From Limnohabitans sp. Rim8 (GTDB taxonomy: Bacteria > Pseudomonadota > Gammaproteobacteria > Burkholderiales > Burkholderiaceae_C), in assembly GCA_945897465.1 (NCBI GenBank), contig CAMDFK010000006.1, forward strand, positions 1 to 64,000: 64,000 nucleotides of DNA, read 5' to 3'. The stretch's first letter is position 1, and every line of letters starts with the position of its first letter. The translations under genes were made by a program, and so were the position numbers. This document shows, piece by piece, positions 15,193 to 38,807 of the stretch. Under the pieces are notes generated by a model. It had not been told where the DNA came from and ran no database searches. It worked only from the letters and a program-made list of their open reading frames with translations.

Positions 15193-16476
15193 ATGTTGAA
15201 AAAAGAACAAAACGACTTGATCACACAAACAGGACCTGGCACGCCAATGGGTGACGTATTTCGTCGCTATTGGTTGCCCGCTTTGCTGTCTGAGCAGTTG
15301 CCAAACCCTGATTGTGAGCCTGTGCGTTTGGAGTTGTTGTCTGAAAAAATGCTGGCTTTCCGCGACACCGAAAGTCGCTTGGGTTTGGTGGATGAGTTTT
15401 GCGCACACCGGGGTGTCTCGCTCTGGTTTGGCCGCAACGAACAAGGCGGCATCCGTTGCCCTTACCACGGCTGGAAGTACGACATCACAGGCCAGTGCGT
15501 TGAGGTGCCCTCCGAGCCGAACAGTGGCTATGCCGATCGCATCAAGCTCAAGTCCTATCCGATGGTTGAACGTGGTGGCGTGATTTGGGTCTACATGGGC
15601 CCACCCGAGCGGCAACCTGCTTTGCCTGAGTGGGAATTTGCCACCTTGCCAGTGTCCCACTCGTACATGTCCAAGCGTTTGCAGGCCAGCAATTGGCTGC
15701 AAGCCCTGGAAGGTGGCATCGATTCCAGCCACGTGTCCTTTTTGCACAGTGCCTCACTCAGCCGTGACCCCTTGTTCAAAGGCGCGAAAGGCAACCAGTA
15801 CAACCTGAACGATTTGAGCCCCGTTTTTGAAGTGGTGGAAGCCGATGGTGGTCTGCTGGTGGGTGCGCGCCGCAATGCCGAAGACGACCAGTACTACTGG
15901 CGTGTGACACCATGGATCATGCCTTGCTTCACCATGGTGCCCCCACGCGGCGATCACCCTGTGCACGGTCATTTCTGGGTGCCCATCAATGACACCACCT
16001 GCTGGACATGGAGCTTTGACTACCATCCAACACGGCCTTTGACCGATGCTGAACGTCAAGCCATGATCGGTGGCGCAGGCATACACGTCTTGGTGGACAA
16101 GAACTATGTGCCCTTGCAGCGCGCAGAAAACGATTACCTCATGGACCGCCAAGCGCAGCGAGAAGGCAGCTTGTACAGCGGCATCGAGGGCATTGGCATG
16201 CAAGACGCTTCCCTTCAGGAAAGCATGGGTGCCATTCAAGATCGAACCAAAGAAAACTTGGTGTCTACAGACAACGGCATCATCATGACCCGTCAACGTC
16301 TGATGAAAGCCGCCAAAGCATTGGCCGCCGATCCAGATTACAAACTGCCAGGCCTCGATCCCGAGCACCAAAAAATCCGCTCTGTGGCGGTTCTGCTCAA
16401 GCGCGACTTGGTTTTCAAAGAGGCAGCCCAAGACGCATTCCGTGCGGAACCCGGCAAACCACACGCCACCGTTTGA
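15193..16476 (+). CDS. Rieske non-heme iron oxygenase, alpha subunit
   Basis: A 427-residue oxygenase of the phthalate-dioxygenase type. The N-terminal Rieske site has C70-x-H72 in EFCAHRGVSLWFG and C89-xx-H92 in CPYHGWKYD. The catalytic domain has NWLQALEGGIDSSHVSFLHS, giving the bridging aspartate and two iron histidines. The third iron ligand lies in the C-terminal part. Such enzymes hydroxylate or demethylate aromatic acids. It starts a plus-strand unit with the zinc dehydrogenase and shares an operator with the divergent ferredoxin gene. Substrate not determinable. Confidence 0.92.
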   Translation: MLKKEQNDLITQTGPGTPMGDVFRRYWLPALLSEQLPNPDCEPVRLELLSEKMLAFRDTESRLGLVDEFCAHRGVSLWFGRNEQGGIRCPYHGWKYDITGQCVEVPSEPNSGYADRIKLKSYPMVERGGVIWVYMGPPERQPALPEWEFATLPVSHSYMSKRLQASNWLQALEGGIDSSHVSFLHSASLSRDPLFKGAKGNQYNLNDLSPVFEVVEADGGLLVGARRNAEDDQYYWRVTPWIMPCFTMVPPRGDHPVHGHFWVPINDTTCWTWSFDYHPTRPLTDAERQAMIGGAGIHVLVDKNYVPLQRAENDYLMDRQAQREGSLYSGIEGIGMQDASLQESMGAIQDRTKENLVSTDNGIIMTRQRLMKAAKALAADPDYKLPGLDPEHQKIRSVAVLLKRDLVFKEAAQDAFRAEPGKPHATV

Positions 16477-17675: not shown

Positions 17676-18722
<1,047 letters not shown>

Positions 18723-18789
18723 AAAAACAGATCCTGAAGTTCGGCGATGTTCGCCACATGAGGTGTTTGTCAAAAAGGAAACCATTTGC

Positions 18790-19260
18790 ATGGAACGCAT
18801 CACCATATCCATTGAACCTGAGTTGGCCACTATTTTGGATGAACTCACCCAGCGACACGGTTATGCATCCCGTTCTGAAGCGATGCGCGATTTGATCCGC
18901 GGTTGGCACTCACAAGACGCGGTGCAAAAAAACGAAACCGTCCATTGCGTCGCCTACATGGGCTATGTTTACAACCACCATGATCGCACCGTGGCCGAGC
19001 GCTTGGCTCACATTCAGCATGACCAGCACAACTTGACGATCTCCAGCATGCACATGCACCTTGACCATGACCATTGCTTGGAGGTTGCATTTTTAAAAGG
19101 GCGAACCAAAGAAGTGCGCCAATTTGCACACCGTGTGATCGCCCAAACGGGGGTGCGTCATGGTCAGGTTCAAATTTTGCCCATGCACCAAAGTCAAGCC
19201 GATGCAGGGCACGACCATGGCGACGGTGTTCACCACGTGCATTTGCAACCCACCAGTTGA
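18790..19260 (+). CDS. nikR: Nickel-responsive transcriptional regulator NikR
   Basis: A 156-residue ribbon-helix-helix repressor. The N-terminus ERITISIEPELATILDELTQ and YASRSEAMRDLIRGW form the DNA-binding domain; the ACT-like domain carries the high-affinity nickel ligands, including HMHLDHDHCLEVAFLKG with the HxH and cysteine. A His/Asp tail (HDHGDGVHHVHL) adds metal capacity. The ATG at 18790 is chosen over 18763 by homology. It is divergent from the COG0523 gene (67-base spacer), so it may control both and the NiCoT gene. Confidence 0.95.
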   Translation: MERITISIEPELATILDELTQRHGYASRSEAMRDLIRGWHSQDAVQKNETVHCVAYMGYVYNHHDRTVAERLAHIQHDQHNLTISSMHMHLDHDHCLEVAFLKGRTKEVRQFAHRVIAQTGVRHGQVQILPMHQSQADAGHDHGDGVHHVHLQPTS

Positions 19261-19297: not shown

Positions 19298-20101
19298 TCA
19301 AGTGGCTTTCATAGCAGATGATTTGCCTGGGGCGTGCCAACGACCAACGCTATAAACCAGCAGCAGGGTCAAAGTCAATCCTGCACCTATGTAACCGCCC
19401 CAGTGATCCCAAATGCCATCGAGTGTGGGCAGGTAATGGCTTGTATGGCTGACAAAAACCACCATCAAGGACATGAAACCCACAAGGCCGCTCATCCAAC
19501 GACCAGCCTGATTGGCCATTTGATCGCTTCGCTTGACCAACCAGTGCATGATCAGGCCATTGCCTGTATCGGCCAGCATCATGCCAAAACCAAAGCTCGC
19601 TGACAGCAACACAATCATCCAAATGCCACCCAACTCATGCCCTTTCGCGGCCATCAAACCGGCCTGTGCCAAGGAGTCAAATGAGATCGCAAAAGCGAAG
19701 CCAACCCCCATGGGGTGGGCAAATGGCCCCAGGGCTTTCAGGATGACGCGTTGCAACGGGCTGCTGATGTGCTCATGCTGATGCGGGGAAAAAAAGTTGC
19801 GCAGATTGACCAAGCCCAGCCATAGCAAAAATACCGTTGAGACCCAGAGACCCACTTGGTCTAACCACTGTGGCAACTGCAAACCCTGCCAGTAGAAAAT
19901 CAATGTAGCCAGCAAGATGGTCAAGCTGTGACCCAAAGCGAACTGGAATCCAGTCAAGCGAGCCGACCAATAAGCATTGGCTTTGTAACGCATGCGGGTC
20001 AGGCCATCCACGGTGGCGATGTGGTCTGGGTCCAAGCCATGCCGAAACCCCAGTGCCAGCAGCAACCCTAATGTCACCCAAAGAGAAGCGTTCGAGTCCA
20101 T
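19298..20101 (-). CDS. Nickel/cobalt permease (NiCoT, HoxN/NixA family)
   Basis: A 267-residue integral membrane protein with about seven to eight hydrophobic segments. The family signature is RHGLDPDHIATVDG, a variant of the HX4DH nickel motif of helix II, followed by FALGHSLTILL and later SFDSLAQAGLMA and ADTGNGLIMHWL. The ATG at 20101 avoids an implausible His/Met-rich extension in the longer frame, which is a shadow of the neighbouring His-rich gene. It imports Ni2+ (or Co2+) by proton motive force. It sits between nikR and the His-rich EutA-like gene, which is unusual. Confidence 0.9.
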   Translation of the reverse strand: MDSNASLWVTLGLLLALGFRHGLDPDHIATVDGLTRMRYKANAYWSARLTGFQFALGHSLTILLATLIFYWQGLQLPQWLDQVGLWVSTVFLLWLGLVNLRNFFSPHQHEHISSPLQRVILKALGPFAHPMGVGFAFAISFDSLAQAGLMAAKGHELGGIWMIVLLSASFGFGMMLADTGNGLIMHWLVKRSDQMANQAGRWMSGLVGFMSLMVVFVSHTSHYLPTLDGIWDHWGGYIGAGLTLTLLLVYSVGRWHAPGKSSAMKAT

Positions 20102-20102
20102 G

Positions 20103-20129
20103 ATATGAAGTTCCTTTAATTTGTCATAC
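20103..20129. promoter_or_regulatory. Possible NikR-type operator before the nickel permease gene
   Basis: ATATGA and TCATAC form an inverted pair with a 15-base spacer two bases upstream of the permease start. The classical NikR site is GTATGA-N16-TCATAC, so one arm base and the spacer differ by one. Location next to nikR supports it, the spacing speaks against it. Confidence 0.35.
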
Positions 20130-20177: not shown

Positions 20178-22019
20178 TCAGGCCTTCGAGGAGTGAACAT
20201 GAGAAGGGGCATGACGGTGGTCATGGCCATGTTCATGGTCGTGGCCATGCTCATGCTCATGCGCGTGGTGGTGACCATGTTCGTGATCATGTTCATGACC
20301 GTGCGCATGAGGGTGGTGGTGTTCATATGGATGGTGGTGTTCATGCGAATGCGCCTTCGCATGTCGATGCATGTGTCCATCCTCATGTGCATGCCATTCC
20401 CCCGCGTCCGACTTGCCATGGGCCCTGGGGTCCTCATTAAAAACGAGTGATTTGACCGTCACGGGCACAGTCCAGGAGGGCATGCGAATGCGGCCAAGAT
20501 CCACAAAGTCAAAGCCCCACAAAGTGACGCCGTCGATGACCAAGACTTCGCTGTGCATGCGCTCGTCTTCTTTCAGCAAGTGCCCCAAATTGTGTGCAAT
20601 GTCACCATCTGCCACGACATAAATGGGCCGTTTTTGAGCCAGGGACTCCGGCAACGCATCCAGAAGGCCACGCGCCAATGCGGACAGCCGGTCGAATGAG
20701 GGGGCTCCGGCCCAGCGCAATGAAACCGCAACGTCCTGTGCGCCTTCTACCAAGTCGTGTCGACGGAAAGATTGACGCAAAGCATGGGCGATTTCTTCAC
20801 TTGAAATGACGGGTCCCAGCGCCAGATTGAGCGGAATCACCTGCAAATTTTTGCGGGGCAACAAAATGGCCGGCTCAGAAATGTAGGTCGTGTTGCCACT
20901 GAGCTGCACACTGTATTCCGATGCGCCCAATACCGTTGCACGAATGCATTCACCGGCGGGCAGCAAAGGCGCAGACAAAGCAGATTGGTCAATCCGGTTT
21001 CTCACCGACTCCCCAAACAATTTGCCCAGATCCCCAAAGTCACGCGTTTCGCGGTGGTATACATACTCACCCACACCGCCAGAAAACATGATGCCGTCCA
21101 GTTGGCCCCAGTCTTCAACCGGGTCTGTCAAGAACAGATGCTCTAAATCTTCGCGTGTAAAGCGTTGGGTCAATACACGCATCAAGGCGTCTGCCATCCA
21201 CGATGCCACCTGGGCCAGCTGATCACGGCCGACTTGTTGGCCGACCACCCAATCAAATCCCGCTTGTTGGGCCAAATATTGACCTGCCGGATCCAGTCGT
21301 GTGAGGACATTTTTCTCGTCCACCACCATCAGCCGGCCTCCCAAGTGAACCGCAGCGGTGGCCACCAACTCACCGTTTTGCACCAAGCCCAGCTTGGTGG
21401 TGCCACCGCCAATGTCGATGTTCAAGATGCGCTGCTTGTCGTCGTAACTTCGTTTGGCAGCGCCTGAGCCATACACCGCCAGCATGGACTCCATGTGGTG
21501 GCCTGCCGTGGCGCAGACAAACTCGCCGCCTTGCTCTGCCAGCACGGCGGCAATCGACTCGCTGTTTTCCCGGCGCAAGGCTTCACCGGTCAGGATCACC
21601 GCGCCCGCATCCACTTCGTCCGGGTGCAAACCGGATTCTTGGTACGCCTTGTCGATGATGGCGCCCAAAGCTTTGGCGTCCATCAGGGTGTCACTTTGGT
21701 AGGGCGTCAAAGAAATGGGTGACTGGTAAATGGAGGTGCGTTCGACCACCGTGTAACGGCTCGACAAATCTTCGGCAATACGGCGCAGGTGGATGCGCGA
21801 AAAGACCACTTGTGTGCCGGAAGAGCCCACGTCAATGCCGACGCTGTGCAAGATCACATTGTCTTGACGCCACAAGGACTCTTGAGAAGGGTCATCACCC
21901 GCGAAATCATGGTCATGGTCGTGGTCGGCTTCGCCATCGTGTGTATGGCTGTAGTCCTGCCCATATTGATGGTCCTGCACTGAATGGATGTTGGGCTTGG
22001 GGGTGTCTTGAGAACTCAT
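20178..22019 (-). CDS. EutA-like ASKHA ATPase with His-rich N- and C-terminal extensions
   Basis: A 613-residue protein homologous to EutA, the ATP-dependent reactivator of ethanolamine ammonia-lyase. It has HSVGIDVGSSGTQVVFSRI (phosphate 1), EVDAGAVILTGEALRREN, ILNIDIGGGTTKLGLVQNG (phosphate 2), DGIMFSGGVGEYVYHRET, CIRATVLGASEYSVQLSGNT and VPVTVKSLVF, in the same order as EutA. A His/Asp-rich segment precedes the ATPase (about residues 15-35). A tail of about 80 residues is dominated by His with Glu, Asp and Gly, resembling metal-storage tails of HypB or UreE. The start at 22019 follows the reductase stop by 38 bases. No EutBC is in the window, so the client is unknown; nickel handling is inferred from the tail and neighbours. 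Confidence 0.88.
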   Translation of the reverse strand: MSSQDTPKPNIHSVQDHQYGQDYSHTHDGEADHDHDHDFAGDDPSQESLWRQDNVILHSVGIDVGSSGTQVVFSRIHLRRIAEDLSSRYTVVERTSIYQSPISLTPYQSDTLMDAKALGAIIDKAYQESGLHPDEVDAGAVILTGEALRRENSESIAAVLAEQGGEFVCATAGHHMESMLAVYGSGAAKRSYDDKQRILNIDIGGGTTKLGLVQNGELVATAAVHLGGRLMVVDEKNVLTRLDPAGQYLAQQAGFDWVVGQQVGRDQLAQVASWMADALMRVLTQRFTREDLEHLFLTDPVEDWGQLDGIMFSGGVGEYVYHRETRDFGDLGKLFGESVRNRIDQSALSAPLLPAGECIRATVLGASEYSVQLSGNTTYISEPAILLPRKNLQVIPLNLALGPVISSEEIAHALRQSFRRHDLVEGAQDVAVSLRWAGAPSFDRLSALARGLLDALPESLAQKRPIYVVADGDIAHNLGHLLKEDERMHSEVLVIDGVTLWGFDFVDLGRIRMPSWTVPVTVKSLVFNEDPRAHGKSDAGEWHAHEDGHMHRHAKAHSHEHHHPYEHHHPHAHGHEHDHEHGHHHAHEHEHGHDHEHGHDHRHAPSHVHSSKA

Positions 22020-22057: not shown

Positions 22058-23080
22058 TCAATAAAACTGGTCAAAGTGCACTTGGTCCATGGGCACCTTG
22101 CGCTCCACCAACACCTTGATCAAGGATTGCGCCATGAGTGGCGGGCCAGCAAAATAAATTTCCATTTCAGTCAGCCGTTCCCCCCAAATGTCATTGACGG
22201 CATCGTGCACAAACCCTTGCAATTGACCTTCTTGCAGGGGTGCATCCGCAGTTGCGCCAGAAATGACGGCTTGGTAGTGGCCTCGTGCAGACCAAGCGTC
22301 CAGTGCTTCCAGCATGTCCAGCCCACAGACGTCCTGTGGGGTGCGCGCACCGTACACAAAATGCAGGCGTTGGTTGACCAATTTGGGGCTGTTCATCGCG
22401 CCGCGCGCCACAGACACCATGGGCGCCAAGCCCGAGCCACCGGCAATGCACAAAATATCTCGGGGTGCATCTTCTCTGACGTAGGCCATGCCATAAGGAC
22501 CATCGATCTCTACACGCTCACCCAAAGGCAAGTTAAAAAGCGCTGAAGAGCCCACACCATCGGGCGTGCGGCGCACCTGGAAGTCGATGAAAGTCGCGTC
22601 GCCGCCTTGCGTGCTCATGGAGTAGGCGCGCGGCCCCTGAATGCCGGACATCTGAAGCAGCGCATATTGACCAGACGAAAAAGCCATCGGTTGGGCCAGC
22701 TCAAAACGAAACTCGGACAGATCGTGCGTGATGGTGCGTGAGCCTCTGAGCCAAGCCTCGGTTTTCAGGGGCGTGTGCACAGGCTTGTATTTGTCAGAAG
22801 TGCGCAGCTTGATGTGCAAATCGCCCAGGGCATGCGTCTGGCAGCCCAGCCATTTGTTTTTGAGTTTGTCCTTTTGGCTCAGGCCCGGTGCTTCCACCCA
22901 GGAAGACTTGACCTCGCCTTCCAGCAACTCAAATTTGCAATTGCCACACGAGCCCACATTGCACTCATAGGGAAACGCCAAGCCTTCACGCAAAGCTGCA
23001 CGCAAAAGGGTGTCGCCGGGTTGGCAAGAGAAAGACAGGTCGCTGCCGGAAATTTGGACACGGTGAGAAGAATTGGACAT
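22058..23080 (-). CDS. NAD(P)H:ferredoxin-type reductase with plant-type 2Fe-2S domain
   Basis: A 340-residue class I oxygenase reductase. The N-terminal ferredoxin domain has YECNVGSCGNCKFELLEG with three cluster cysteines and the fourth in WLGCQTHA. The FAD domain has GPRAYSMST and the NAD domain IAGGSGLAPMVSVARG and YFAGPPLMAQ. It lies between iclR and the EutA-like gene, all on the minus strand with gaps of about 35 bases, so they form one unit. It is the likely electron donor for the Rieske ferredoxin and oxygenase at 14.7-16.5 kb. Confidence 0.92.
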   Translation of the reverse strand: MSNSSHRVQISGSDLSFSCQPGDTLLRAALREGLAFPYECNVGSCGNCKFELLEGEVKSSWVEAPGLSQKDKLKNKWLGCQTHALGDLHIKLRTSDKYKPVHTPLKTEAWLRGSRTITHDLSEFRFELAQPMAFSSGQYALLQMSGIQGPRAYSMSTQGGDATFIDFQVRRTPDGVGSSALFNLPLGERVEIDGPYGMAYVREDAPRDILCIAGGSGLAPMVSVARGAMNSPKLVNQRLHFVYGARTPQDVCGLDMLEALDAWSARGHYQAVISGATADAPLQEGQLQGFVHDAVNDIWGERLTEMEIYFAGPPLMAQSLIKVLVERKVPMDQVHFDQFY

Positions 23081-23113: not shown

Positions 23114-23890
23114 TCAAGGGCGATAACCCAATTGCGCCGAAATGGCGTTGGCAGTGTTGATCAGTTCGGCCGACAAGCCGCGCAATTTTTTGAGCGTCAG
23201 GCGCTGACTGGGACCACCAATGCCGATGGCCGCAACCACATTGCCTGCAATGTCACGGATTGGCGCGCCAATGCCCCGCATGCCTTGTTCAGATTCTTCA
23301 TCATCGATGGCAAAACCGTTGTGCCTGATGGCTTCGAGCATTTTTGAAAGTTTGACCGGATCTGTTTCTGTGGCGGACGTTCGCGGAACCAATGGGCCAG
23401 ACAAAATCTTGCCGATCATGGCCCCACCCGAAAATGCCACGATCGCCCGGCCTTCGCAGGTGAAGATTGCTGGCTTGATGGTGCCGATGTAACTTTTCAT
23501 GCGAATCGCTTGACGGCTTTCCAGGTTGTAGAGGTAGATGATGTTGGTGTCCGTCATGACCGCCAAGTGCACCGTCTCACCCGTGCGCTCTCGCAAAACA
23601 TTCAAAAACGGCTGCGCCATGTTCGACACTTCCAGTCGACGGCGCACCAAGGCACCCATCACGAACAAATTGATACCGAGCCGGTATTTGCCCGATTCAG
23701 GGCTTTGCTCCAGCAAGCCTTCGCTGGTCAACGTGACGGCCAAGCGGTGAACTGTACTTTTGGCCAAATCCAGGCGTTTGGCCAGGCTGCTGATGCCGAT
23801 CTCTGTCTCCACCTCTGAAAAGCACTTCAAAACACGCACAGCCGCTGTCACGGAAGACAGGCGGGGGCTTTGAGAAATTTTGGGTTCCAT
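23114..23890 (-). CDS. IclR-family transcriptional regulator
   Basis: A 258-residue regulator. The winged helix is in GISSLAKRLDLAKSTVHRLA with LTSEGLLEQ; the effector domain includes RTGETVHLAVMTDTNIIYL and the C-terminal GMRGIGAPIRDIAGNVVAAI. A perfect AAAGAAC-N3-GTTCTTT palindrome lies 48 bases upstream, so it probably regulates itself and the divergent ABC transporter genes. The same palindrome occurs in front of the Rieske genes, the porin and the 408-residue cupin, which makes it the likely master regulator of the block. Confidence 0.92.
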   Translation of the reverse strand: MEPKISQSPRLSSVTAAVRVLKCFSEVETEIGISSLAKRLDLAKSTVHRLAVTLTSEGLLEQSPESGKYRLGINLFVMGALVRRRLEVSNMAQPFLNVLRERTGETVHLAVMTDTNIIYLYNLESRQAIRMKSYIGTIKPAIFTCEGRAIVAFSGGAMIGKILSGPLVPRTSATETDPVKLSKMLEAIRHNGFAIDDEESEQGMRGIGAPIRDIAGNVVAAIGIGGPSQRLTLKKLRGLSAELINTANAISAQLGYRP

Positions 23891-24184: not shown

Positions 24185-25918
24185 GTGCAAAGCTTTGAAG
24201 CTGGAACTGCGCCACCACCTTGGTGGCAAAAGTTCGATGCCAAATGGTTGGTTATTGGTGGGTGCTTGGCCTTGGTGGCTGTCCTCGCTTTGGTTCCCTT
24301 GGGATTCATGATTTGGCAAAGCTTTCACACGCCAGAAACAAACGCCGCGCCGTCTGTCTTTACATTGGGGAACTATGAAAAGGCTTACACGAACCCAGAA
24401 ACGATCACGATCTTCTGGAATTCGGTGCAGTTTGCCTTGGGCACCTCTGCAGTAGCGTTCACTTTGGGCACGACCCTGGCATGGATCAACGAACGAACCA
24501 ACACGCCCATGCGTCGTTTGTTTTATACCTTGTCCATTGTGCCTTTGATCATTCCCGGCATCTTGTTCACGATTTCATGGATCATGCTGGCCAGTCCCAA
24601 AATCGGACTGATCAATCTGGTTATGCAGTCTTGGTTTGGTTTGGATTCACCGCCCTTCAACATCTACTCCATGGGGGGGATGATCTGGGTCGACGGTTTG
24701 CATTATTCGCCCTTGGCATTCTTGTTAATGTCAGCCGCCTTCAGGGCCATGGACCCCTCGCTCGAAGAGTCGGCGACCATGAGTGGTTCGGGGGTGTTGA
24801 ATACCTTGTACCGCATCACATTGAAATTGGCACTGCCCGCTATTTTGGCCACAGTGCTGACCCTGTTCATTGAGGCCATTGCTTCATTTGAAGTGCCTGC
24901 ATTGCTTGGTTTGCCAGCGGGGATACAGGTTTTCACTTCGGCGATTTATCAATCGATTCACCAATACCCAAGCCAAATCGGTTTGGCGGCGGCCTATTCG
25001 GTGATTTTGCTGATGCTCACCACGGGGGGTATTTACATTCAGTCCCGAATTTCATCGAGTGGCAGCAAATACTCAACCGTCACGGGCAAAGGCTTTCGGC
25101 CCCGCACCATCGACTTGGGCAAGTGGCGCTTTTTCACGTTGGGCATCTTCATTGTGTATTTCTTGCTCATCGTGGTGCTGCCTTTCTTTGTGCTGTTGTG
25201 GTCGTCGCTGCAAAAGTTTTATGCACCGCCTTCCATGGCGGCGCTGCAAAACATCACGCTGGACGGCTACCGTTATGTGTTTGCGTCCTCCAACATCCGA
25301 GACGCTGCGCTGAACAGCTTGTGGATGTCGGTCACCACAGCCACGGTGGTGATGCTGCTGGCTTCTGTGATCAGTTGGATTGTGGTGAAAACCAAAATCC
25401 CAGGGCGCTGGTTGCTGGACAACATGGCTTCATTGCCCATGGTGTTCCCAGGCCTGGTCTTGGGTGTCTCGATCATGATTTTCTATCTGACCTTTGACAT
25501 TGGCATTTACGGCACGTTCTGGATCATTTTGTTGGCCTACGTCACACGTTTTATGCCATACGGCTTGCGGTACAGCACCACGTCGATGATCCAAATCCAC
25601 AAAGACCTTGAAGAGTCCGCCGGCATGAGTGGTGCCAGTTGGTTCACCGTTTTCCGCCGCATCATTTTGCCGCTGCTCAAACCTGGCCTTATTGCCGGCT
25701 GGATCTACGTGATGATTGTGTCAATCCGTGAATTGTCAACCTCGATTCTTCTCTACAGCCCAGGCAACGAAGTGATCTCGGTCATGATTTGGGAACTTTG
25801 GGAGAACGGTCAGTACGTCGAGTTATCAGCACTGAGTGTGATGTTCATCTTGATGTTGTTGGTGTTGGTGGGCTTGGCTCAGGCCGCAGGCAAACGCTTT
25901 GGCGTCAAAGAGGGCTAA
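24185..25918 (+). CDS. ABC transporter permease, fused two-domain FbpB/AfuB type
   Basis: A 577-residue inner-membrane protein with about 12 hydrophobic helices in two BPD_transp_1 halves. Each half has the EAA loop that contacts the ATPase: SLEESATMSGSGVLNTLYRI in the first and DLEESAGMSGASWFTVFRRI in the second. This duplicated layout is typical of Fe(III)- and phosphonate-type importers. It begins with GTG at 24185, preceded by AAGGAG nine bases upstream. It is the first gene of a transport and cupin operon and would work with the ATPase and the solute-binding proteins nearby. Confidence 0.93.
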   Translation: MQSFEAGTAPPPWWQKFDAKWLVIGGCLALVAVLALVPLGFMIWQSFHTPETNAAPSVFTLGNYEKAYTNPETITIFWNSVQFALGTSAVAFTLGTTLAWINERTNTPMRRLFYTLSIVPLIIPGILFTISWIMLASPKIGLINLVMQSWFGLDSPPFNIYSMGGMIWVDGLHYSPLAFLLMSAAFRAMDPSLEESATMSGSGVLNTLYRITLKLALPAILATVLTLFIEAIASFEVPALLGLPAGIQVFTSAIYQSIHQYPSQIGLAAAYSVILLMLTTGGIYIQSRISSSGSKYSTVTGKGFRPRTIDLGKWRFFTLGIFIVYFLLIVVLPFFVLLWSSLQKFYAPPSMAALQNITLDGYRYVFASSNIRDAALNSLWMSVTTATVVMLLASVISWIVVKTKIPGRWLLDNMASLPMVFPGLVLGVSIMIFYLTFDIGIYGTFWIILLAYVTRFMPYGLRYSTTSMIQIHKDLEESAGMSGASWFTVFRRIILPLLKPGLIAGWIYVMIVSIRELSTSILLYSPGNEVISVMIWELWENGQYVELSALSVMFILMLLVLVGLAQAAGKRFGVKEG

Positions 25919-25953: not shown

Positions 25954-27063
25954 GTGTTATCAGTTAAAAATCTCTTTACAGAATATGTCAGCGACAAGGG
26001 TGCCATCGTCAAAGCCGCTCAAGATGTGAGCTTTGAAGTGCCTGAAGGCAAGCTGTTCACTTTGCTGGGCCCCAGTGGTTGCGGAAAGACCACCACCTTG
26101 CGCTCCATTGCCGGTTTGGAAAAACCCACATCCGGTCAGATTGAGGTGGCCGGGGTCGCGGTGTACAGTTCTGACAAAAAAGTGTTTGTCCAACCCAACA
26201 AGCGTGGGTTCGGCATGGTTTTTCAGTCATATGCCATCTGGCCACACATGACTGTTTTTCAAAATGCGAGCTTCCCTCTGGAGGTGGGCAACAAAAAGTA
26301 CACCGCGAAAGAAATTGAAACCAAAGTGATGTGCACCTTGGAGGCTGTAGAGCTGGCACAGTACCGTGACCGTGATGCCACCCGTTTATCAGGGGGTCAA
26401 CAGCAGCGATTGGCTTTGGCGCGTGCGTTGGTCATGGAGCCCAAACTCTTGTTGCTCGATGAGCCTTTGTCCAACCTGGATGCCAAACTGCGCGAAAAAA
26501 TGCGCTTTGAGCTGAAAAAAATCCAACGTGAGATGGGCATCACCACCATCTATGTGACGCACGATCAGTCGGAAGCCTTGGCACTCTCGCACGAAATCGC
26601 GGTCATGCGCGACGGCAGGATCGTCCAGCGTGGCACGCCGCGTGAAATTTACGAGACACCCAACAGCGAATTCGTGGCAGATTTTGTAGGCAGCATCAAC
26701 TTTGTCAAAGGCACCATCAAAGACCTGAACGCGCCAGGCAGCATGATGGTGATCGATACCGAAATTGGCGTCTTGCAAGCCCCCTTGCGCAGTGGTTTTG
26801 CGGTGGGTGAACAAGTCCAGGTTTGTGTCCGGCCTGAGGATGTCTTCCTGAGCGAAGAAGTGCCTCAACTGGATCACCATAACCATTGTCATGGCACCGT
26901 TTTTGCCAAGATTTTCTTGGGTGAAGTTTTGGATTTTCAGGTCAAGGTGGGCGAAAAAGTCATGTTGGCACGCGTCCACCCCAGCCAGAAGACGCCTGTC
27001 GATCACCCCATCCACATCGTCTTGGACCCCAAAGATTGCATCGTGATCAAGGGCCATGCTTAA
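25954..27063 (+). CDS. ABC transporter ATP-binding protein (FbpC/PotA type)
   Basis: A 369-residue ATPase starting at GTG 25954. Walker A is LLGPSGCGKTTTLRS, the Q-loop VFQSYAIWPHMTVFQN, the signature LSGGQQQRLALARAL, Walker B LLLLDEPLSNLD and the H-loop YVTHDQSEALALS. A C-terminal TOBE-like domain (from about residue 240) includes VCVRPEDVFLSEE and a His cluster. It follows the permease by 35 bases and energises it. Confidence 0.94.
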   Translation: MLSVKNLFTEYVSDKGAIVKAAQDVSFEVPEGKLFTLLGPSGCGKTTTLRSIAGLEKPTSGQIEVAGVAVYSSDKKVFVQPNKRGFGMVFQSYAIWPHMTVFQNASFPLEVGNKKYTAKEIETKVMCTLEAVELAQYRDRDATRLSGGQQQRLALARALVMEPKLLLLDEPLSNLDAKLREKMRFELKKIQREMGITTIYVTHDQSEALALSHEIAVMRDGRIVQRGTPREIYETPNSEFVADFVGSINFVKGTIKDLNAPGSMMVIDTEIGVLQAPLRSGFAVGEQVQVCVRPEDVFLSEEVPQLDHHNHCHGTVFAKIFLGEVLDFQVKVGEKVMLARVHPSQKTPVDHPIHIVLDPKDCIVIKGHA

Positions 27064-27092: not shown

Positions 27093-27695
27093 ATGAGTGA
27101 TGACAAGCAACCCGCCGCTTCACCGGAATTCGTTCCCAATGAGTCGCATTACCACAGCAAAAAAGACCGCACGTTTGTACGAGCCATCGCTGGTCCGTAC
27201 AACCTGAACGATGAGCTCAAGCGCTTGCGCGCCATGCCACGGGTTCGCAAGGGTAAGGACATCAAATTCAACGATGGTCCCCAGGCATTCAGCCGCCACT
27301 ATGTGGAACCCAAGGATGGCATCACGCAGACATTCCACATGCACCTGGAAGAGTACGGCCCCGGTGGCAACTCGCAAAAGCACGGTCATGTGAACGAAGC
27401 CGCCTTTTACATTTTGGATGGCACGGGCTACGAAATTCACGACGGCATCCGTTACGACTGGAAGGCCGGCGACATTGCTGTGGTGCACAATAACTGCGTG
27501 CACCAACACTTCAATGCCAGCAGCGAGCGTCCTGCCCGGGCCTTGGTGATCAAAACAAAACCCATGTACATGTTCATGAACATGTTGTTCCAGCAACAAG
27601 TGGAGCCACGTCCTAGCGAACCTGCGCCAGGCGGTGAGGGCTTCAAAGCCCGCAATGAGGAAGAGGACTTCAACTACCCTAAGGGAGGTTACTGA
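27093..27695 (+). CDS. Cupin-domain protein (HQHFN cupin family), copy 1
   Basis: A 200-residue single-cupin protein. Motif 1 is GGNSQKHGHVNEAAFYILDG, with HxH and the glutamate as metal ligands. Motif 2 is WKAGDIAVVHNNCVHQHFNA, providing the fourth histidine in HQHFN. The metal site looks complete, consistent with an Fe, Mn or Ni dioxygenase, decarboxylase or isomerase. The ATG at 27093 follows AAGGAAA. It lies 29 bases after the ABC ATPase and one base before the next cupin gene, so all are co-transcribed. Substrate unknown. Confidence 0.88.
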   Translation: MSDDKQPAASPEFVPNESHYHSKKDRTFVRAIAGPYNLNDELKRLRAMPRVRKGKDIKFNDGPQAFSRHYVEPKDGITQTFHMHLEEYGPGGNSQKHGHVNEAAFYILDGTGYEIHDGIRYDWKAGDIAVVHNNCVHQHFNASSERPARALVIKTKPMYMFMNMLFQQQVEPRPSEPAPGGEGFKARNEEEDFNYPKGGY

Positions 27696-27696
27696 T

Positions 27697-28293
27697 ATGG
27701 CTTGGGACGAATCAAAATCATGGCTCAAAGGCACAGAGCAGGGACAGTATTACCAAGGTTTGCTTGACGATGCCGAGCAAATGCCTGCGCGCAACGCGAA
27801 ACGCCACAAAGTGGTGCGCCCAGAGGACATGCCATGGGAGATGGCACGTCAAGGTCTGCTCAAGCATTTGCTCAATGAGTCAATGAACACGCGCATTGAA
27901 ACGGTGGATGCTTACATGCAAATCATTCCTCCGGGCAGCAAGTCGGGCAAGCACCGTCACCTCGCCGAAGAGTGTGTGTACGTTTTGGAAGGTCGTGGCT
28001 ATGACTTGCACCAGGACTGCGATGTGAAAATCACGGACACCTACCACTGGAAGCCTCAGGACGAAATCAAACGCTACGAGTGGGAAGCCGGTGATGTGAT
28101 TTACATCCCACCAAACACCATTCACCAGCACTTCAATGCCGACCCGGACCGGCCTGTTCGCCTGATCTCCTCCATCAACCGCATCTTCAAGTACTGCGGT
28201 CTGAACGATTTGGAGCAAATCGAAAATGCACCCGAATTCGACCCTTCGGTGGTGTTGGACGGCGAAAAAATCCTGAAGTACCTGCGCAAGTAA
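27697..28293 (+). CDS. Cupin-domain protein (HQHFN cupin family), copy 2
   Basis: A 198-residue single-cupin protein preceded by the strong ribosome site AAGGGAGG. Motif 1 is GSKSGKHRHLAEECVYVLEG (HxH and glutamate) and motif 2 is WEAGDVIYIPPNTIHQHFNA. An insertion between the strands (around DTYHWKPQDEIKRYEW) adds a histidine. It is paralogous to the preceding cupin, and the ATG lies one base beyond that gene's TGA, so equimolar expression and a hetero-oligomer are plausible. Confidence 0.88.
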   Translation: MAWDESKSWLKGTEQGQYYQGLLDDAEQMPARNAKRHKVVRPEDMPWEMARQGLLKHLLNESMNTRIETVDAYMQIIPPGSKSGKHRHLAEECVYVLEGRGYDLHQDCDVKITDTYHWKPQDEIKRYEWEAGDVIYIPPNTIHQHFNADPDRPVRLISSINRIFKYCGLNDLEQIENAPEFDPSVVLDGEKILKYLRK

Positions 28294-28337: not shown

Positions 28338-29453
28338 ATGGCAAAAGACGCTCTTGTATCCGAAGACTTGGCTTCGAAATTCGCAACTGAAAAAGAAACA
28401 CCTTACACACGTTGGGTGAAAGACGAGGGGCTGGACATCATCAGCGCCCACTATGTTCGCAACCTCAACACCGTTGACCTCAAGCCTTGGGCCCGCCGCG
28501 GTGGCAAAGGGGTGTACATCAACCACGAAGCCTCACGCACCTCCAACGACTGCTATGTGGTGGAGATTGCGCCAGGCAAGCAATTGGAGCCACAGCGTCA
28601 GATCTTCGAGGAAATGATTTATGTCCTCTCGGGTCGAGGCTCCACAACGGTCTGGAACGACCAGGGTCACCGCATCACCTTCGAGTGGCAAGCGGGCGCC
28701 TTGTTTGCCATTCCCTTGAACTGCTTACATCAGCACTTCAATGGTTCGGGCAAAGATGCGGCACGTTTTGTGGCGGTGACCAATGGCCCACCCGTCATCA
28801 ACTTGTACGAAGACCTGAACTTCGTGTTCAACACCCAATACGATTTCGGCAACCGCTTCAATGGTGAGCCTGATTATTTCAGTGGCAAAGGTGAGCAAAA
28901 AGGCTTATTGCTCGAGACCAACTTTGTGGCTGATGCCGTGAACTTGCCCTTGATCAGTGCCAAAGAACGCGGTGCGGGTGGTGGTCACATCCGCTTCAAC
29001 ATGGCACGCGGCTCCATGAACAGCCACATCTCTCAGTTCCCAATTGGCACATATAAAAAAGCCCATTGTCACGGTCCAGGAGCCCACGTTATTATTTTGA
29101 GCGGCGAGGGTTACAGCCTGATGTGGCCAGAGGGCGAAGAGCCTCGCCAATACGACTGGGAAGTCGGCTCGATGATTGTGCCGCCCAACATGTGGTTCCA
29201 TCAGCACTTCAACACAGGCACCACGCCAGCACGCTATTTGGCGTTCAAGCACGAAGTGGTTTCTGTGCGCAATGCACAAGGCGTACCCAAAGCCTGGATC
29301 AGCCGCCGAATCGGCGGAGATCAGATTGATTACGCCGATGAGAGCACTGCTGTGCGCGATCGTTTTGCCGATGCTTTGTCCAAGCACGGCATGGCGCCCC
29401 GCATGACCGAAGCATACGAAGCTGAACTGCCCTCTTTGCCCCCTAAAAACTAA
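28338..29453 (+). CDS. Bicupin protein (HQHFN cupin family), copy 3
   Basis: A 371-residue protein with two cupin domains. The first has QRQIFEEMIYVLSGRG in place of an HxH motif, so its metal site lacks the first two histidines, but keeps NCLHQHFNG. The second is complete: TYKKAHCHGPGAHVIILSGE and PPNMWFHQHFNTG. Only the second domain is therefore expected to be catalytic. Gentisate dioxygenase-type bicupins have a similar length but different motifs. It is the third cupin in the operon and precedes two solute-binding protein genes. Confidence 0.87.
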   Translation: MAKDALVSEDLASKFATEKETPYTRWVKDEGLDIISAHYVRNLNTVDLKPWARRGGKGVYINHEASRTSNDCYVVEIAPGKQLEPQRQIFEEMIYVLSGRGSTTVWNDQGHRITFEWQAGALFAIPLNCLHQHFNGSGKDAARFVAVTNGPPVINLYEDLNFVFNTQYDFGNRFNGEPDYFSGKGEQKGLLLETNFVADAVNLPLISAKERGAGGGHIRFNMARGSMNSHISQFPIGTYKKAHCHGPGAHVIILSGEGYSLMWPEGEEPRQYDWEVGSMIVPPNMWFHQHFNTGTTPARYLAFKHEVVSVRNAQGVPKAWISRRIGGDQIDYADESTAVRDRFADALSKHGMAPRMTEAYEAELPSLPPKN

Positions 29454-29479: not shown

Positions 29480-30547
29480 ATGAACCACTTCAACAAGACA
29501 CGCCGACAGCTGGTGCAAGCCGGTGCATTGGCTTTGGGCAGTGGGGCTTTGCCCTTCGCCCATGCCCAAGCATCGTCACCGCTGATGACGCAATTGGCCA
29601 ATTTGACCGGGCAAGACCGCCTGAACAAACTGGCCGAAGGCGCGCGCAAAGAAGGCAACTTGAGTATTTACACCTCCATGCCTGTCGACGACATTGGCGC
29701 ATTGACTGCTGCCTTTGAGCAGCGCTACGGTGTCAAGTCCAAAGTCTGGCGCAGTGGTTCAGAAAAAATTTTGCAACGCGGTCTGTTGGAGGCCCGGGCC
29801 AAACGTTACGAAGTCGACGTGTTTGAAACCAACGGCCCTGAGCTGGAGGTTTTGTCCCGCGAAAAACTCCTGCACGAATGCAAGTCACCTCATCTGGGCG
29901 ACCTCATTCCACAAGCCATTCGCCCCCACAAGGAGTGGATTGCCACGCGCCTGAATATTTTCACGTGTGCCTACAACACCAAGTTGGTCAAAAAAGAAGA
30001 GCTGCCCAAAACCTATGCCGATTTGCTCGATCCCAAGTGGAAAGGCAAATTGGCGGTCGAAGCAGAAGACAGCGATTGGCTGGCTGAAATCGTGATGAAA
30101 ATGGGCGAGGAAAAGGGCATCGCCTTGTTCAAGGAAATCGTCCGCAAGAACGGCATGTCCGTGCGCAAGGGCCACACCCTGTTGGCCAACTTGGTGGCCT
30201 CGGGTGAGGTGCCACTGGGCTTGACGCTGTACAACTACAAAATCGAACAGATGAAAAACTCCGGGGCACCGGTGGAATGGTTCTCCCTCGATCCCGTCGT
30301 GGCACGCCCCAACGGCAATGGCGTGGCCAGAAATGCACCCAATCCCCACGCCGCCATCTTGTTCCAGGATTTTGAGTTGTCCGAAGGTCAGGCCATTCTG
30401 GGCAAACGGGACTTTATTCCCGTCAGCAACAAGGTGCCCTCCACACTCAACAAAATGCCTCTGATTTTTGCGGACCCCAAGGTCACTTTGGACGATGGCA
30501 ACAAGTGGACGCGCATCTACGAAGAAATATTCAGTCGCAAGGGTTGA
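29480..30547 (+). CDS. Extracellular solute-binding protein of an Fe(III)-type ABC importer, copy 1
   Basis: A 355-residue type 2 periplasmic binding protein. A likely Tat signal (TRRQLVQAGALALGS, ending LPFAHAQAS) precedes the mature domain. Family blocks are KVWRSGSEKILQRGLLEARA, KTYADLLDPKWKGKLAVEAE and MSVRKGHTLLANLVASGEVP. It follows the bicupin gene by 26 bases. With the permease and ATPase upstream it should form a complete importer. Four paralogues exist in the window, so the ligand may be an organic compound rather than iron. Confidence 0.9.
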   Translation: MNHFNKTRRQLVQAGALALGSGALPFAHAQASSPLMTQLANLTGQDRLNKLAEGARKEGNLSIYTSMPVDDIGALTAAFEQRYGVKSKVWRSGSEKILQRGLLEARAKRYEVDVFETNGPELEVLSREKLLHECKSPHLGDLIPQAIRPHKEWIATRLNIFTCAYNTKLVKKEELPKTYADLLDPKWKGKLAVEAEDSDWLAEIVMKMGEEKGIALFKEIVRKNGMSVRKGHTLLANLVASGEVPLGLTLYNYKIEQMKNSGAPVEWFSLDPVVARPNGNGVARNAPNPHAAILFQDFELSEGQAILGKRDFIPVSNKVPSTLNKMPLIFADPKVTLDDGNKWTRIYEEIFSRKG

Positions 30548-30564
30548 AGCACCAAACATGGATA

Positions 30565-30597
30565 GGGAAAGAAACTTCTGGCTTCTTTCCCTTTTTT
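30565..30597 (+). terminator. Terminator-like hairpin between two solute-binding protein genes
   Basis: A perfect nine-base stem GGGAAAGAA/TTCTTTCCC with a nine-base loop, followed by six T residues. It can cause partial termination, lowering expression of the second binding protein and the MFS gene relative to the cupins. Confidence 0.75.
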
Positions 30598-30617
30598 CAT
30601 TCGACAGGAGACAAAAA

Positions 30618-31676
30618 ATGAGTCACGCAGCATCTTTCAAACAACGCGCCAAAAAATGGGCCCTTTTGAGCCTCTTCGCACTGCCTCTTTGGGCGCAAGC
30701 GCAGGGCTTTGATCCGGGATTGCTGACCAGCACCGCCCCGGACCGTGCGGCCAAGTTGCTCGCTGCAGCGAAGGTGGACGGCTCTTTGACGATGTACACA
30801 TCCATCGCAGAGAAGGATCTCAAACCCATCATTGAACCGTTTGAAAAAAAGTACGGCATCAAGGTGATCACTTGGCGCGCCAGTGGGGACAGTGTCTTGA
30901 ACCGCACACTCAATGAAAACCGTGCCAAGCGCTACACCGCAGACTTGGTCCATGCAGGGTCGGTCGAGCTTGAAGCTTTGTCGCGTGAAAAAGTGCTGCA
31001 GCAAGTCAACTCGCCGCATTTTGCCGATTTGATGCCCGGCAGTGTGCCCGCGCACCGCGAATGGGCATCCACCATTTATTCATTGTGGGTACAGGCCTAC
31101 AACACCAACGCCATCAAAAAAGCCGATACGCCGAAAACCTATGCCGACTTGCTCGACCCCAAATGGAAAGGCAAATTGGGTTATGAGGTTGAAAACATCG
31201 ACTGGTTTGTGACCGTGGTCAAGTCCATGGGCGAAGCCAATGGCTTGAAATATTTTCGCGATCTGGCCAGCACCAATGGCATCTCCATTCGCAAGGGGCA
31301 TACCAACCTGACCAACATGGTGGGTGCGGGTGAGGTTCCCATGGCCCTGACCGTCTACAACTACATGCCCGAACAGCTCAAGAAAAAAGGCGCGCCGATT
31401 GACTGGGTGGTGCTTCAACCGGCGGTGGCACGGGCCAATGCTGTGGGCCTGATGCGCAACGCACCCAAGCCGGCAGCCGCCGCACTGTTCATGGATTACT
31501 TGTTGAGCGAAGGCCAGCAAGCCTTTGCCGACCTGGAGTATTTGCCCAGCAACACCAAAGTCACCTCGGATCTGCGCAGTTTCAAGATCAACTTTGTGGA
31601 CCCAGCGGATAGCTTGGACAACCGGGAAAAATGGCGCAAACTCTACGATGAAATCATCATGCGTGGAGGAAAGTGA
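30618..31676 (+). CDS. Extracellular solute-binding protein, copy 2
   Basis: A 352-residue binding protein paralogous to the preceding gene. A Sec signal (WALLSLFALPLWAQAQG) is followed by TMYTSIAEKDLKPIIEPFEK, the TWRASGDSVLNRTLNE block, TYADLLDPKWKGKLGYEVE and ISIRKGHTNLTNMVGAGEVP. The ATG at 30618 has an AGGAG site. Its TGA overlaps the MFS start as TGATG, so the two are translationally coupled. Confidence 0.9.
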   Translation: MSHAASFKQRAKKWALLSLFALPLWAQAQGFDPGLLTSTAPDRAAKLLAAAKVDGSLTMYTSIAEKDLKPIIEPFEKKYGIKVITWRASGDSVLNRTLNENRAKRYTADLVHAGSVELEALSREKVLQQVNSPHFADLMPGSVPAHREWASTIYSLWVQAYNTNAIKKADTPKTYADLLDPKWKGKLGYEVENIDWFVTVVKSMGEANGLKYFRDLASTNGISIRKGHTNLTNMVGAGEVPMALTVYNYMPEQLKKKGAPIDWVVLQPAVARANAVGLMRNAPKPAAAALFMDYLLSEGQQAFADLEYLPSNTKVTSDLRSFKINFVDPADSLDNREKWRKLYDEIIMRGGK

Positions 31677-34603: not shown

Positions 34604-35830
34604 ATGCCACACGACAAAGACAACGCCCACTGGCACGAGCCAGCGGGCCATAAAAAGGCCGGGTACGGCGTTTTCAAAAAACAACCCACGCCTTATGACG
34701 CTTTCATGGAGCAAGAAGGCTTGCCGGTATTCCGCGATGTGGGCATCGACAAAGTGCAAAACCTGCCATTGGTCGACTGGAAACGAACCGGCGGCAAAGG
34801 CCACTTCATTCAGCTTTACGGCACCGAGACCAAATGGGGTTGCTACGTGGTCGAGGTGCCGGGTGCTGGTGCGCTGCGCCCCGAAAAGCACATGTACGAG
34901 GAAATCTACCTCGTTGTGGAGGGGCGCGGAACGACCGAGGTTTGGCAAGAAGGCGATACCAAAAACCATGTGTTCGAGTGGCAAAAGGGGTCGATGTTTT
35001 CGATCCCGATCAACGCTTGGCACCGCATTGTCAATGCCACCTCCAGTGGTGCTTTGTTGTTGGCCGGCACCACCGCGCCCAACGTGCTGAACATGCTGCA
35101 AAGCAAAGAGGCGGTGTTCAACAACCCCTTTGTTTTCCGCGATCGCTTCAACGGTGCCGATGATTTCTACAAAGCCAGTGATGAGATCGAGGCCGACCCG
35201 GTGCGTGGTTTGGCCATGCGACGGACCAACTTCATTCCGGATGTGATGACCTGTGACTTGCCGCTGGACAACCGGCGCTCGCCGGGTTACCGCCGGATTG
35301 AGCCGTTCATGACCAACAACTGCTTCTACTTCTGGATTGGTCAACACGAGAACGGCCGTTACTCGCGTGCGCACGCCCACACCTCAGCGGCGGTGCTCAT
35401 TTGCCTCAATGGCAAAGGCTACACCTACACCTGGCCAGAAGACGAAGGCGAAACCCCTTGGAAAGACGGCAAAGAGCATTTGGTGCGGCGCATCGATTAC
35501 GAGCCGGTCGGCTTGGTCTCGGCAGCTCCTGGCGGCGCGCGTTGGTACCACCAGCATTTCAGCTCCGGCTCGGAGGCCTTGCGTTTGACCGCTTGGTTTG
35601 GCCCCCACAACCCGGGCCGTGACCCCGGCGCACCAGGCTCCAAACACACCGACTACACAGCGCAAGATGTGACCGAGGGGGGCACCACCATCCCGTATTG
35701 GCTGGAAGACCCGCACATTCGAAACGAATATCAGGCCTTGCTCAAGCGAAACAGCGTGCCCGATCGCATGGATCCAGACTGGTACAACATACCAGCGGAA
35801 TTCATGGAAAAGTTTGGCCCCAAAAAGTGA
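34604..35830 (+). CDS. Bicupin protein (HQHF cupin family), copy 4
   Basis: A 408-residue protein with two cupin domains. The first has RPEKHMYEEIYLVVEGRG, with a single histidine where HxH is expected, and AWHRIVNA instead of HQHFN, so its site is degraded. The second has GRYSRAHAHTSAAVLICLNG (HxH) and, after an insertion, RWYHQHFSSGSEALRL. It is related to the bicupin at 28338. It lies ten bases upstream of the second EutA-like gene, which argues for a functional pairing of cupin and EutA-like protein. Confidence 0.87.
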   Translation: MPHDKDNAHWHEPAGHKKAGYGVFKKQPTPYDAFMEQEGLPVFRDVGIDKVQNLPLVDWKRTGGKGHFIQLYGTETKWGCYVVEVPGAGALRPEKHMYEEIYLVVEGRGTTEVWQEGDTKNHVFEWQKGSMFSIPINAWHRIVNATSSGALLLAGTTAPNVLNMLQSKEAVFNNPFVFRDRFNGADDFYKASDEIEADPVRGLAMRRTNFIPDVMTCDLPLDNRRSPGYRRIEPFMTNNCFYFWIGQHENGRYSRAHAHTSAAVLICLNGKGYTYTWPEDEGETPWKDGKEHLVRRIDYEPVGLVSAAPGGARWYHQHFSSGSEALRLTAWFGPHNPGRDPGAPGSKHTDYTAQDVTEGGTTIPYWLEDPHIRNEYQALLKRNSVPDRMDPDWYNIPAEFMEKFGPKK

Positions 35831-38332: not shown

Positions 38333-38797
38333 ATGGCAATCACAGAATTTCTGTTGGATGGTAAAAGAGTCAGAATTGACAGCGATCCACAAATGCCCCT
38401 GCTGTACGCGTTGCGCGACGATCTGAAACTCAACAACCCCAAATTTGGGTGCGGCGTGGCGCAATGTGGCGCATGCACCGTGCACTTGGATGGACAACCC
38501 ATCCGTTCGTGTGTGGTGCCTGTGTCAGAGATCAAGAACAAAAAGGTCACCACCTTGGCTGGCCTGGGCACACCCGAAAAACCACACCCCATTCAGGTGG
38601 CATTCGTAGAAGAGCAAGTGCCTCAATGCGGTCACTGCATCAATGGTTGGGTCATGACAGCGGCTGCGTTTTTAAAGACAAACCCGAAGGCCAACGACGA
38701 CCAAATTCGTGATGCCCTGCAAGGGCTGAAGTGCCGTTGTGGCACCCATGTGTCGATTTTACGTGCCATCAAGCGCGCCCAAACCCAAATGGCCTGA
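38333..38797 (+). CDS. 2Fe-2S subunit of a molybdenum hydroxylase (isoquinoline 1-oxidoreductase type)
   Basis: A 154-residue iron-sulfur subunit of the xanthine oxidase family. The plant-type cluster is in CGVAQCGACTVHLDG and RSC; the second cluster is in QCGHCINGWVMTAA and GLKCRCGTHVSILRA. The ATG at 38333 follows AAGGAGACAAT. It precedes the large subunit by ten bases. No FAD subunit is nearby, matching two-subunit enzymes such as IorAB. Confidence 0.93.
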   Translation: MAITEFLLDGKRVRIDSDPQMPLLYALRDDLKLNNPKFGCGVAQCGACTVHLDGQPIRSCVVPVSEIKNKKVTTLAGLGTPEKPHPIQVAFVEEQVPQCGHCINGWVMTAAAFLKTNPKANDDQIRDALQGLKCRCGTHVSILRAIKRAQTQMA

Positions 38798-38807
38798 AGG
38801 AGACAAC

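Follow-up and report, generated by a model that had tools for sequence, protein, structure and literature searches.

Introduction

Cupin enzymes are usually thought to acquire their metal unaided, and we know of no earlier ATP-dependent maturation or repair factor for one of them. Activators of the ASKHA type reactivate corrinoid and dehydratase enzymes reductively. The reactivating factor EutA, as described in a passage of PMC5821096, needs ATP to strip its client of damaged cofactor, while metal-delivering proteins may carry histidine stretches (COG0523, UreG and HypB, in a passage of PMC2770081) or histidine-rich tails of varying importance (UreE and SlyD, in a passage of PMC7055735). Here we analyze a stretch of 64,000 nucleotides from Limnohabitans sp. 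Rim8 (contig CAMDFK010000006.1, positions 1 to 64,000; “the window”), which encodes two EutA-like ATPases, EutA1 and EutA2, and two bicupins, cupC and cupD. Considering family membership, intact ATPase motifs, histidine-rich tails, paralogue-matched pairing, co-occurrence, enrichment of nickel genes and the absence of EutB together, we think it probable that EutA1 uses ATP to load cupC with metal or to reactivate it, within a catabolic cluster of aromatic-acid type, that EutA2 serves cupD likewise, and that nickel or cobalt is the metal. The features on which this proposal centers are as follows.

20178..22019, minus strand: EutA1, ATPase of EutA type (PF06277) extended at both termini by segments of metal-binding type (Pfam, NCBIfam, alignment, tree)
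21906..21947, minus strand: conserved N-terminal His/Asp motif HTHDGEADHDHDHD, EutA1 residues 25–38 (alignment of 80 EutA1-type sequences)
20181..20435, minus strand: C-terminal His-rich tail of EutA1 (34 His in the last 86 residues)
28338..29453, plus strand: cupC, bicupin, proposed EutA1 client, with C-terminal site H243, H245, H250, H288 (Pfam, alignment, pairing, co-occurrence)
34604..35830, plus strand: cupD, bicupin, proposed EutA2 client (Pfam, pairing count)
35841..37352, plus strand: EutA2, second EutA-like ATPase, without His tails (PF06277, 383 bits)

Comparable loci were sampled by scanning one genome per species and keeping the best 80 of 464 relatives, a choice that leans to close relatives; two loci of a further genome (G130) bring the total to 82. 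The gene caller used on GC-rich loci still overlooks some genes. By record title, the loci span Proteobacteria, Actinobacteria, Firmicutes and Acidobacteria.

EutA1 and genuine EutA

The EutA1 coding sequence opens with ATG at 22019 and encodes 613 residues, of which 57–528 match PF06277 (EutA) over profile positions 3–475 of 475 at 377 bits, against a curated Pfam cut-off of 27. EutA2 matches the same profile at full length and is 41% identical to EutA1, so that both belong to the EutA family. EutA1 also matches PF01869, the family of BadF/BcrA activators (38.8 bits, cut-off 31.5). An initial annotation, made from the sequence alone, had matched the ATPase core to EutA motif by motif, and this assignment holds: across 98 aligned sequences (80 EutA1-type and 18 EutA2-like), D63, G65, S66, D202, G204–G206, T207, K209 and S313–V316 are invariant; these positions belong to the two phosphate motifs and to the SGGV motif. 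With core positions unvarying in both groups, we judge the phosphate and adenosine motifs to be intact. This alignment covers 80 of the 82 EutA1-type sequences, with L051 and L073 left out; the 97% match to EutA1 in Limnohabitans sp. 15K (L039) is among the loci, and no strong relative of EutA1 was found among solved structures.

Histidines crowd at both ends of the protein, with 34 in the last 86 residues and 7 in the first 56, as against 13 in the 471-residue core. The two metal-binding-type ends of the initial annotation are therefore present, but the conserved feature is the short N-terminal motif and not the long C-terminal tail. Within D-H-x-H-D, the first histidine (His35) is kept in 78 of the 80 EutA1-type sequences and the second (His37) in 76, whereas eight or more histidines in the C-terminal tail occur in 53 of the 80 (and in none of the 18 EutA2-like sequences).

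By equivalog cut-off, by EutB in the genome and by grouping in a tree, EutA1 falls outside genuine EutA. Four NCBIfam EutA equivalog models match it, all below their own cut-offs (best 316 of 598 bits), and its identity to the EutA proteins of Klebsiella, E. coli and Cetobacterium is about 31–33%. A maximum-likelihood tree of 64 rows (39 of the 80 EutA1-type rows and four genuine EutA among them) unites the EutA1-type proteins in one clade (100/100) and the four genuine EutA in a separate one (99/95); EutA2-like rows are scattered rather than united, and L037 and some genuine EutA sit on long branches. The L037 protein (L037:1468-2895) is a distant EutA relative (~30% identical) beside an aminomethyltransferase-like gene, so named by resemblance, with no bicupin within the 4.4 kb sampled.

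Three annotated control genes for genuine EutA each adjoin eutB and eutC. The window’s genome, listed as 99.48% complete, has no match to EutB (PF06751), as expected from the earlier statement that ethanolamine ammonia-lyase is absent, and the same search across 49 EutA1 genomes (those of 48 of the 80 loci less one, plus the window’s own, G000, and G130) found a match in 10 and none in 39. One might still read the full-length PF06277 match, the annotation of an EutA2-like gene as EutA in a public record and those 10 EutB-bearing genomes as signs of a reactivase for another adenosylcobalamin enzyme encoded elsewhere. We regard this as highly improbable in view of the 39 genomes without EutB, the separate clade of the four genuine EutA, the eutB and eutC neighbors of the three control genes, and the lack of a B12 enzyme among the subset of neighbor proteins run against Pfam.

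Pairing with bicupins

Within the window, EutA2 and cupD are adjacent, while EutA1 and cupC lie 6.5 kb apart on opposite strands; the EutA2–cupD tandem, like all four cupin genes of the window, was absent from the initial annotation. We counted pairings for 118 EutA-like stretches in 99 DNA pieces, with the window and two distant controls included and L036, L038, L121, L122, L123 and L135 (doubles or fragments) left out. A bicupin gene lies within 1.5 kb of 72 stretches and farther away in the same piece for 26; 20 have none. The pairing is lineage-specific: among 55 tight co-directional pairs (gap of at most 450 bp), 50 are matched by type, joining EutA1-type with cupC-type (28), EutA2-type with cupD-type (14), or other with other (8). 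Pairs on opposite strands join EutA1-type genes with cupC-type (5), cupD-type (3) or other (1) bicupins.

The same partnership is seen at the level of genomes. A cupC homologue is present in 60 of the 82 loci, its best match being 69–96% identical and, as a rule, closer than that of the same locus’s EutA1, and 48 of the 49 EutA1 genomes have a cupC orthologue that is 72% identical or more. The one without it, G522, is a draft genome in which the EutA1-bearing contig (L046) breaks off past cupB. Two loci without a bicupin for 10 kb on either side (L052 and L063) have a cupC of 76–77% identity on another contig; as both genomes are drafts, the genes may yet be linked at a distance. A large bicupin family, with 27 cupC-family matches, occurs in G534, the genome of L058.

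A class-level sample of 369 genomes yielded cupC (E-value 1e-30) in one, the window’s own, and EutA1 (1e-20) in three, the other two being a 40% partial match and a 30% match. Both genes were thus too rare there, and a sample of another order was used instead, namely 297 genomes from the order of G531 (record titled Rhizobiales). In that sample cupC (1e-100) occurs in six genomes, EutA1-like genes (1e-60) in seven and both in six, with a chance probability of 7.7e-12, and four of these six carry the pair as neighbors within 0.5 kb. The seventh EutA1-like genome (G723) has a 41% match only, at paralogue level, and in G829 both genes are partial or weak.

Gene-by-gene pairing and co-occurrence thus agree in giving EutA1 a dedicated bicupin partner, and the coupling of EutA-like and bicupin genes is well supported. 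The initial annotation had proposed a reactivase or chaperone for an unknown client; the helper part stands, with ethanolamine ammonia-lyase set aside, but the client can now be named, most likely as cupC. A different reading, in which the tails merely buffer nickel and the bicupin pairing reflects co-regulation, draws on the histidine composition of the tails and on the neighboring NikR and NicO genes. It seems to us quite unlikely, considering the ATPase core positions that do not vary in 98 sequences, the pairing of EutA2 with a bicupin in the absence of tails, and the lineage specificity of the pairs.

The putative bicupin metal site

Assigned by motif, the metal ligands of the C-terminal cupin of cupC are conserved: H243, H245 and H288 are present in all 54 aligned C-type sequences and H250 in 53, at a position where cupins usually have a ligand glutamate. 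The 11 D-type sequences have histidine at 243 (11), 245 (10) and 288 (11) and valine at 250 (10). The N-terminal domain of cupC has seemingly lost the usual histidine pair, with glutamine at position 86 in 49 of 54. For the nickel cupin QueD, PMC4416304 describes a form with the glutamate ligand changed to histidine that is still folded and residually active with nickel or cobalt; by analogy, the four-histidine site of cupC fits nickel or cobalt.

Among solved structures cupC has no strong relative, the best being auxin-binding protein 1 (1.1e-5) and gentisate 1,2-dioxygenase (1.7e-5), and its similarity to acireductone dioxygenase is at most weak (E-value 0.57). The gentisate dioxygenase match is one argument for the main rival explanation, under which EutA1 would be an ATP switch that works with an oxidoreductase, FdR, in re-reducing an oxidized Fe(III) bicupin dioxygenase.

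22058..23080, minus strand: FdR, [2Fe-2S]/FAD/NAD oxidoreductase directly upstream of EutA1 (Pfam Fer2, FAD_binding_6, NAD_binding_1; homologue in 14/82 loci)

Only 38 bp separate the FdR stop from the EutA1 ATG, FdR homologues occur in 14 of the 82 loci, and the PF01869 match would suit a reductive activator. At the threshold used, however, no FdR homologue was found in the other 68 loci (of which many span less than 20 kb), FdR could serve a Rieske oxygenase, and the metal genes that recur are of nickel/cobalt type. We therefore hold reductive reactivation to be unlikely, although we take it more seriously than any other rival.

Linkage to nickel genes

The nickel import and regulation genes that the initial annotation placed beside EutA1 are confirmed by Pfam and NCBIfam.

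19298..20122, minus strand: NicO/NiCoT-type nickel-cobalt permease, directly downstream of EutA1, the genome’s only NicO match (PF03824, 44 bits)
18790..19260, plus strand: NikR nickel-responsive regulator (PF08753; NF002815, 174 bits, cut-off 83)
17676..18728, minus strand: CobW/COG0523-type GTPase with an internal His/Glu repeat (PF02492, 118 bits)

On one strand the order is IclR-type regulator, FdR, EutA1, NicO, with NikR and the CobW-type GTPase beyond. A perfect 6-bp tandem repeat of 6.3 copies (18001–18038) lies in the His-Glu stretch of the GTPase gene.

In 17 of the 49 genomes, NicO, EutA1 and cupC share a contig on which NicO is at most 20 kb from EutA1 (19 when the L046 and L051 loci are counted), whereas random placement of the 58 NicO genes predicts 0.46 genomes, the related genomes not being independent. 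The 58 genes derive from 63 rows, five of which are second pieces of the same gene; coincidences on unmatched contigs were dropped (G528, G531, G534, G535, G549, G553, G560 and the second G529 hit), and G522 and G527 owe their place in the count solely to a NicO gene within their loci. By record title, the linked genomes include Limnohabitans, other Burkholderiales, an Oxalobacteraceae metagenome-assembled genome, Paraburkholderia and Aromatoleum, as well as Caulobacter, Rhodospirillales, Nevskia, Pseudomonas agarici and Paenibacillus. They differ in gene order (e.g., EutA1, NikR, NicO in Paraburkholderia L047), and their NicO matches are both strong and weak. NikR homologues occur in 7 of the 82 loci. 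The pairing with nickel genes thus recurs in other genomes, as the initial annotation had asked to see, and it exceeds chance, as would be expected for a nickel metallochaperone; the link is nevertheless not universal. That it might be a local accident of gene order, as the FdR–EutA1 pair of G130 without adjoining NicO or NikR could imply, is rejected by the 49-genome count, which leaves the link as partial.

Profile searches of the window’s genome for urease alpha, NiFe hydrogenase and acireductone dioxygenase gave no match; Ni superoxide dismutase, glyoxalase I and lactate racemase lie outside this three-enzyme search. Across 23 genomes so searched, matches exceed the cut-off for urease in 15, NiFe hydrogenase in 7 and acireductone dioxygenase in 3, and are strong for urease in 12 (1e-49 or better) and for hydrogenase in 4. 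Among the 19 NicO-linked genomes, G000, G527, G540, G545 and G551 are without a strong match to all three enzymes (the last four have weak or partial matches over a cut-off; G000 has none), and G547 and G562 lack urease and hydrogenase and have acireductone dioxygenase. A search of the window, L043, L048 and L118 against Rfam at gathering thresholds gave nothing, and hence no cobalamin or NiCo riboswitch was found in these four. A palindrome at 58091–58118, far from the nickel genes, departs by one mismatch from GTATGA-N16-TCATAC, which we take to be the NikR operator consensus.

Proposed mechanism

We propose that EutA1, an ASKHA ATPase of the EutA family, may have left adenosylcobalamin enzymes and become a dedicated helper of cupC. 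NicO would import nickel (or cobalt) under NikR control, and the histidine-rich ends of EutA1 would gather the metal. ATP-bound EutA1 would then dock on apo- or wrongly metalated bicupin and open it, as EutA and related reactivases do their clients; metal would be inserted or exchanged at the histidine site of the C-terminal cupin, and ATP hydrolysis would free the active enzyme. EutA2 may serve cupD alike, without a metal store. It is from gene and protein sequence that we infer the physical interaction of EutA1 with the bicupin, the identity of the metal, the direction of its transfer, the order of the steps and the reaction of the enzyme. More tentatively, and with the odds somewhat against it, the system could represent a new class of metalloenzyme maturation, in which an ASKHA ATPase with built-in histidine-rich metal stores uses ATP to open a bicupin so that nickel (or cobalt) is inserted or replaced, with paralogous pairs in one catabolic cluster.

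Several observations weigh against metal loading of a bicupin by EutA1. No confirmed NicO lies near EutA1 in 30 of the 49 genomes, including the close relative G130, which keeps both EutA1 tails all the same. Because urease is strong in 12 of the 23 genomes searched and over the cut-off in 15, nickel uptake has another use in those genomes. The presumed NikR operator has 8 matches in the window (up to three mismatches) against 9.95 expected, none near these genes. Fewer than eight histidines are found in the C-terminal tails of 27 of the 80 EutA1-type sequences, actinobacterial and firmicute ones included, and since EutA2 has no tails, these are not required for the pairing itself. As to the pairing, five of the 20 bicupin-less stretches have 9–10 kb on both sides (L052, L063, L066, L067 and L099), five of the 55 tight co-directional pairs are of mixed type, and cupC-family genes can be numerous in a genome (27 matches in G534), perhaps outnumbering its EutA-like genes.

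Gene neighborhood and pathway

The remaining features of the cluster are these.

15193..16476, plus strand: Rieske oxygenase of LigXa type, recurrent in the clusters (PF19301, PF00355; homologue in 28/82 loci)
23114..23890, minus strand: IclR-type regulator (named from resemblance; homologue in 26/82 loci)
24185..25918, plus strand: ATP-binding cassette (ABC) importer permease (by resemblance, the L051 homologue matching PF00528; homologue in 40/82 loci)
25954..27063, plus strand: ABC importer ATPase (PF00005; homologue in 50/82 loci)
27093..27695, plus strand: cupA, single-domain cupin (PF07883)
27697..28293, plus strand: cupB, single-domain cupin (PF07883)
29480..30547, plus strand: ABC substrate-binding protein 1 (PF13343)
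30558..31676, plus strand: ABC substrate-binding protein 2, start uncertain (similarity)
37356..38309, plus strand: alpha/beta hydrolase, often adjoining EutA2 (resemblance; homologue in 12/82 loci)
38333..41168, plus strand: two-gene molybdenum hydroxylase (large subunit PF20256 and PF02738; small subunit by resemblance)

Among the cluster genes are those for an ABC importer, for an amidohydrolase and for Rieske oxygenases whose C-domain is of LigXa type, and a molybdenum hydroxylase stands near EutA2 (its G130 counterparts are 70% and 77% identical); class II aldolase-type genes have weak similarity to the dihydroxyphthalate decarboxylase PhtC. This gene content points to an aerobic pathway that degrades an aromatic or heteroaromatic acid, and the spread of the loci over four phyla, with cupC conserved as described above in all but one genome, suggests that the pathway has been widely transferred. 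A Streptomyces protein of 350 residues (L094:13114-14166) resembles cupA followed by cupB, on which basis the window’s cupA and cupB may assemble into a heteromeric bicupin.

Given the importer, EutA1 could instead be its energy or regulatory accessory. The permease homologues often directly follow EutA1, and in L051 (9977-13453) EutA1 and the permease share a single open frame of 1158 residues, joined by a His-rich stretch, which is either a natural fusion or a lost stop. But tight cupC–EutA1 pairs stand in stretches where no permease homologue was detected (L086, L093, L101, L102, L107 and L109), and EutA2 and other lineages also pair with bicupins; a role in import is accordingly very unlikely.

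Two further observations concern the wider neighborhood. Genes of chromate-transporter type recur near EutA-like genes (L045:14039-14572, PF02417; L119, annotated; L047 and L095, by resemblance). At L118:17047-17874, a ketopantoate-hydroxymethyltransferase-like enzyme (PF02548) lies beside an amidohydrolase-like gene, and its group looks the same as one present in 14 loci.

Significance

EutA-annotated proteins in organisms without ethanolamine ammonia-lyase gain a concrete client candidate from these pairings. If loading or repair of the bicupin metal by EutA1 is true, the EutA family has a new job, some cupin enzymes are assisted by an ATP-driven partner, and a new family of nickel-dependent enzymes brings nickel into aerobic catabolism of aromatic type; EutA1 would then be the first ATP-dependent cupin maturation or repair factor known to us. 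Literature searches, made mostly in non-subscription journals and excluding preprints, found nothing on a reactivating factor with a cupin, on ASKHA with cupin and ATPase, or on a NikR, cupin and dioxygenase gene cluster. Matches for EutA with cupin concern the ectoine eutA or the ethanolamine compartment of C. difficile, and passages of PMC4334477 have ectoine eutA and a cupin solely in a reference.

Comparison with known systems

Like the activators of BadF/BcrA/RACo type, EutA1 is an ASKHA ATPase that would prepare a metalloenzyme, and it shares with them the PF01869 match; those activators transfer electrons through an Fe-S cluster that they carry or use. With the nickel metallochaperones (UreE, SlyD and the HypB/UreG/COG0523 type), EutA1 shares histidine-rich ends and nearby genes for nickel uptake and regulation. 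Unlike EutA1, these chaperones are not ASKHA ATPases, and their best-known clients are urease and hydrogenase, not cupins.

On the client side, cupC resembles the nickel cupins QueD and acireductone dioxygenase in its cupin fold with a histidine-rich metal site, and QueD accepts nickel or cobalt in a 3His/1Glu or 4His form (PMC4416304). In contrast to both, cupC has two cupin domains. We know of no dedicated ATPase needed by QueD or acireductone dioxygenase.

With the reactivating factor EutA, EutA1 shares a full-length family match, the nucleotide-site motifs and the arrangement of an ATPase gene beside a client gene. It departs from EutA in that this client gene encodes a bicupin, in its metal-type extensions, in forming its own clade and in scoring below the cut-offs of the equivalog models that it matches.

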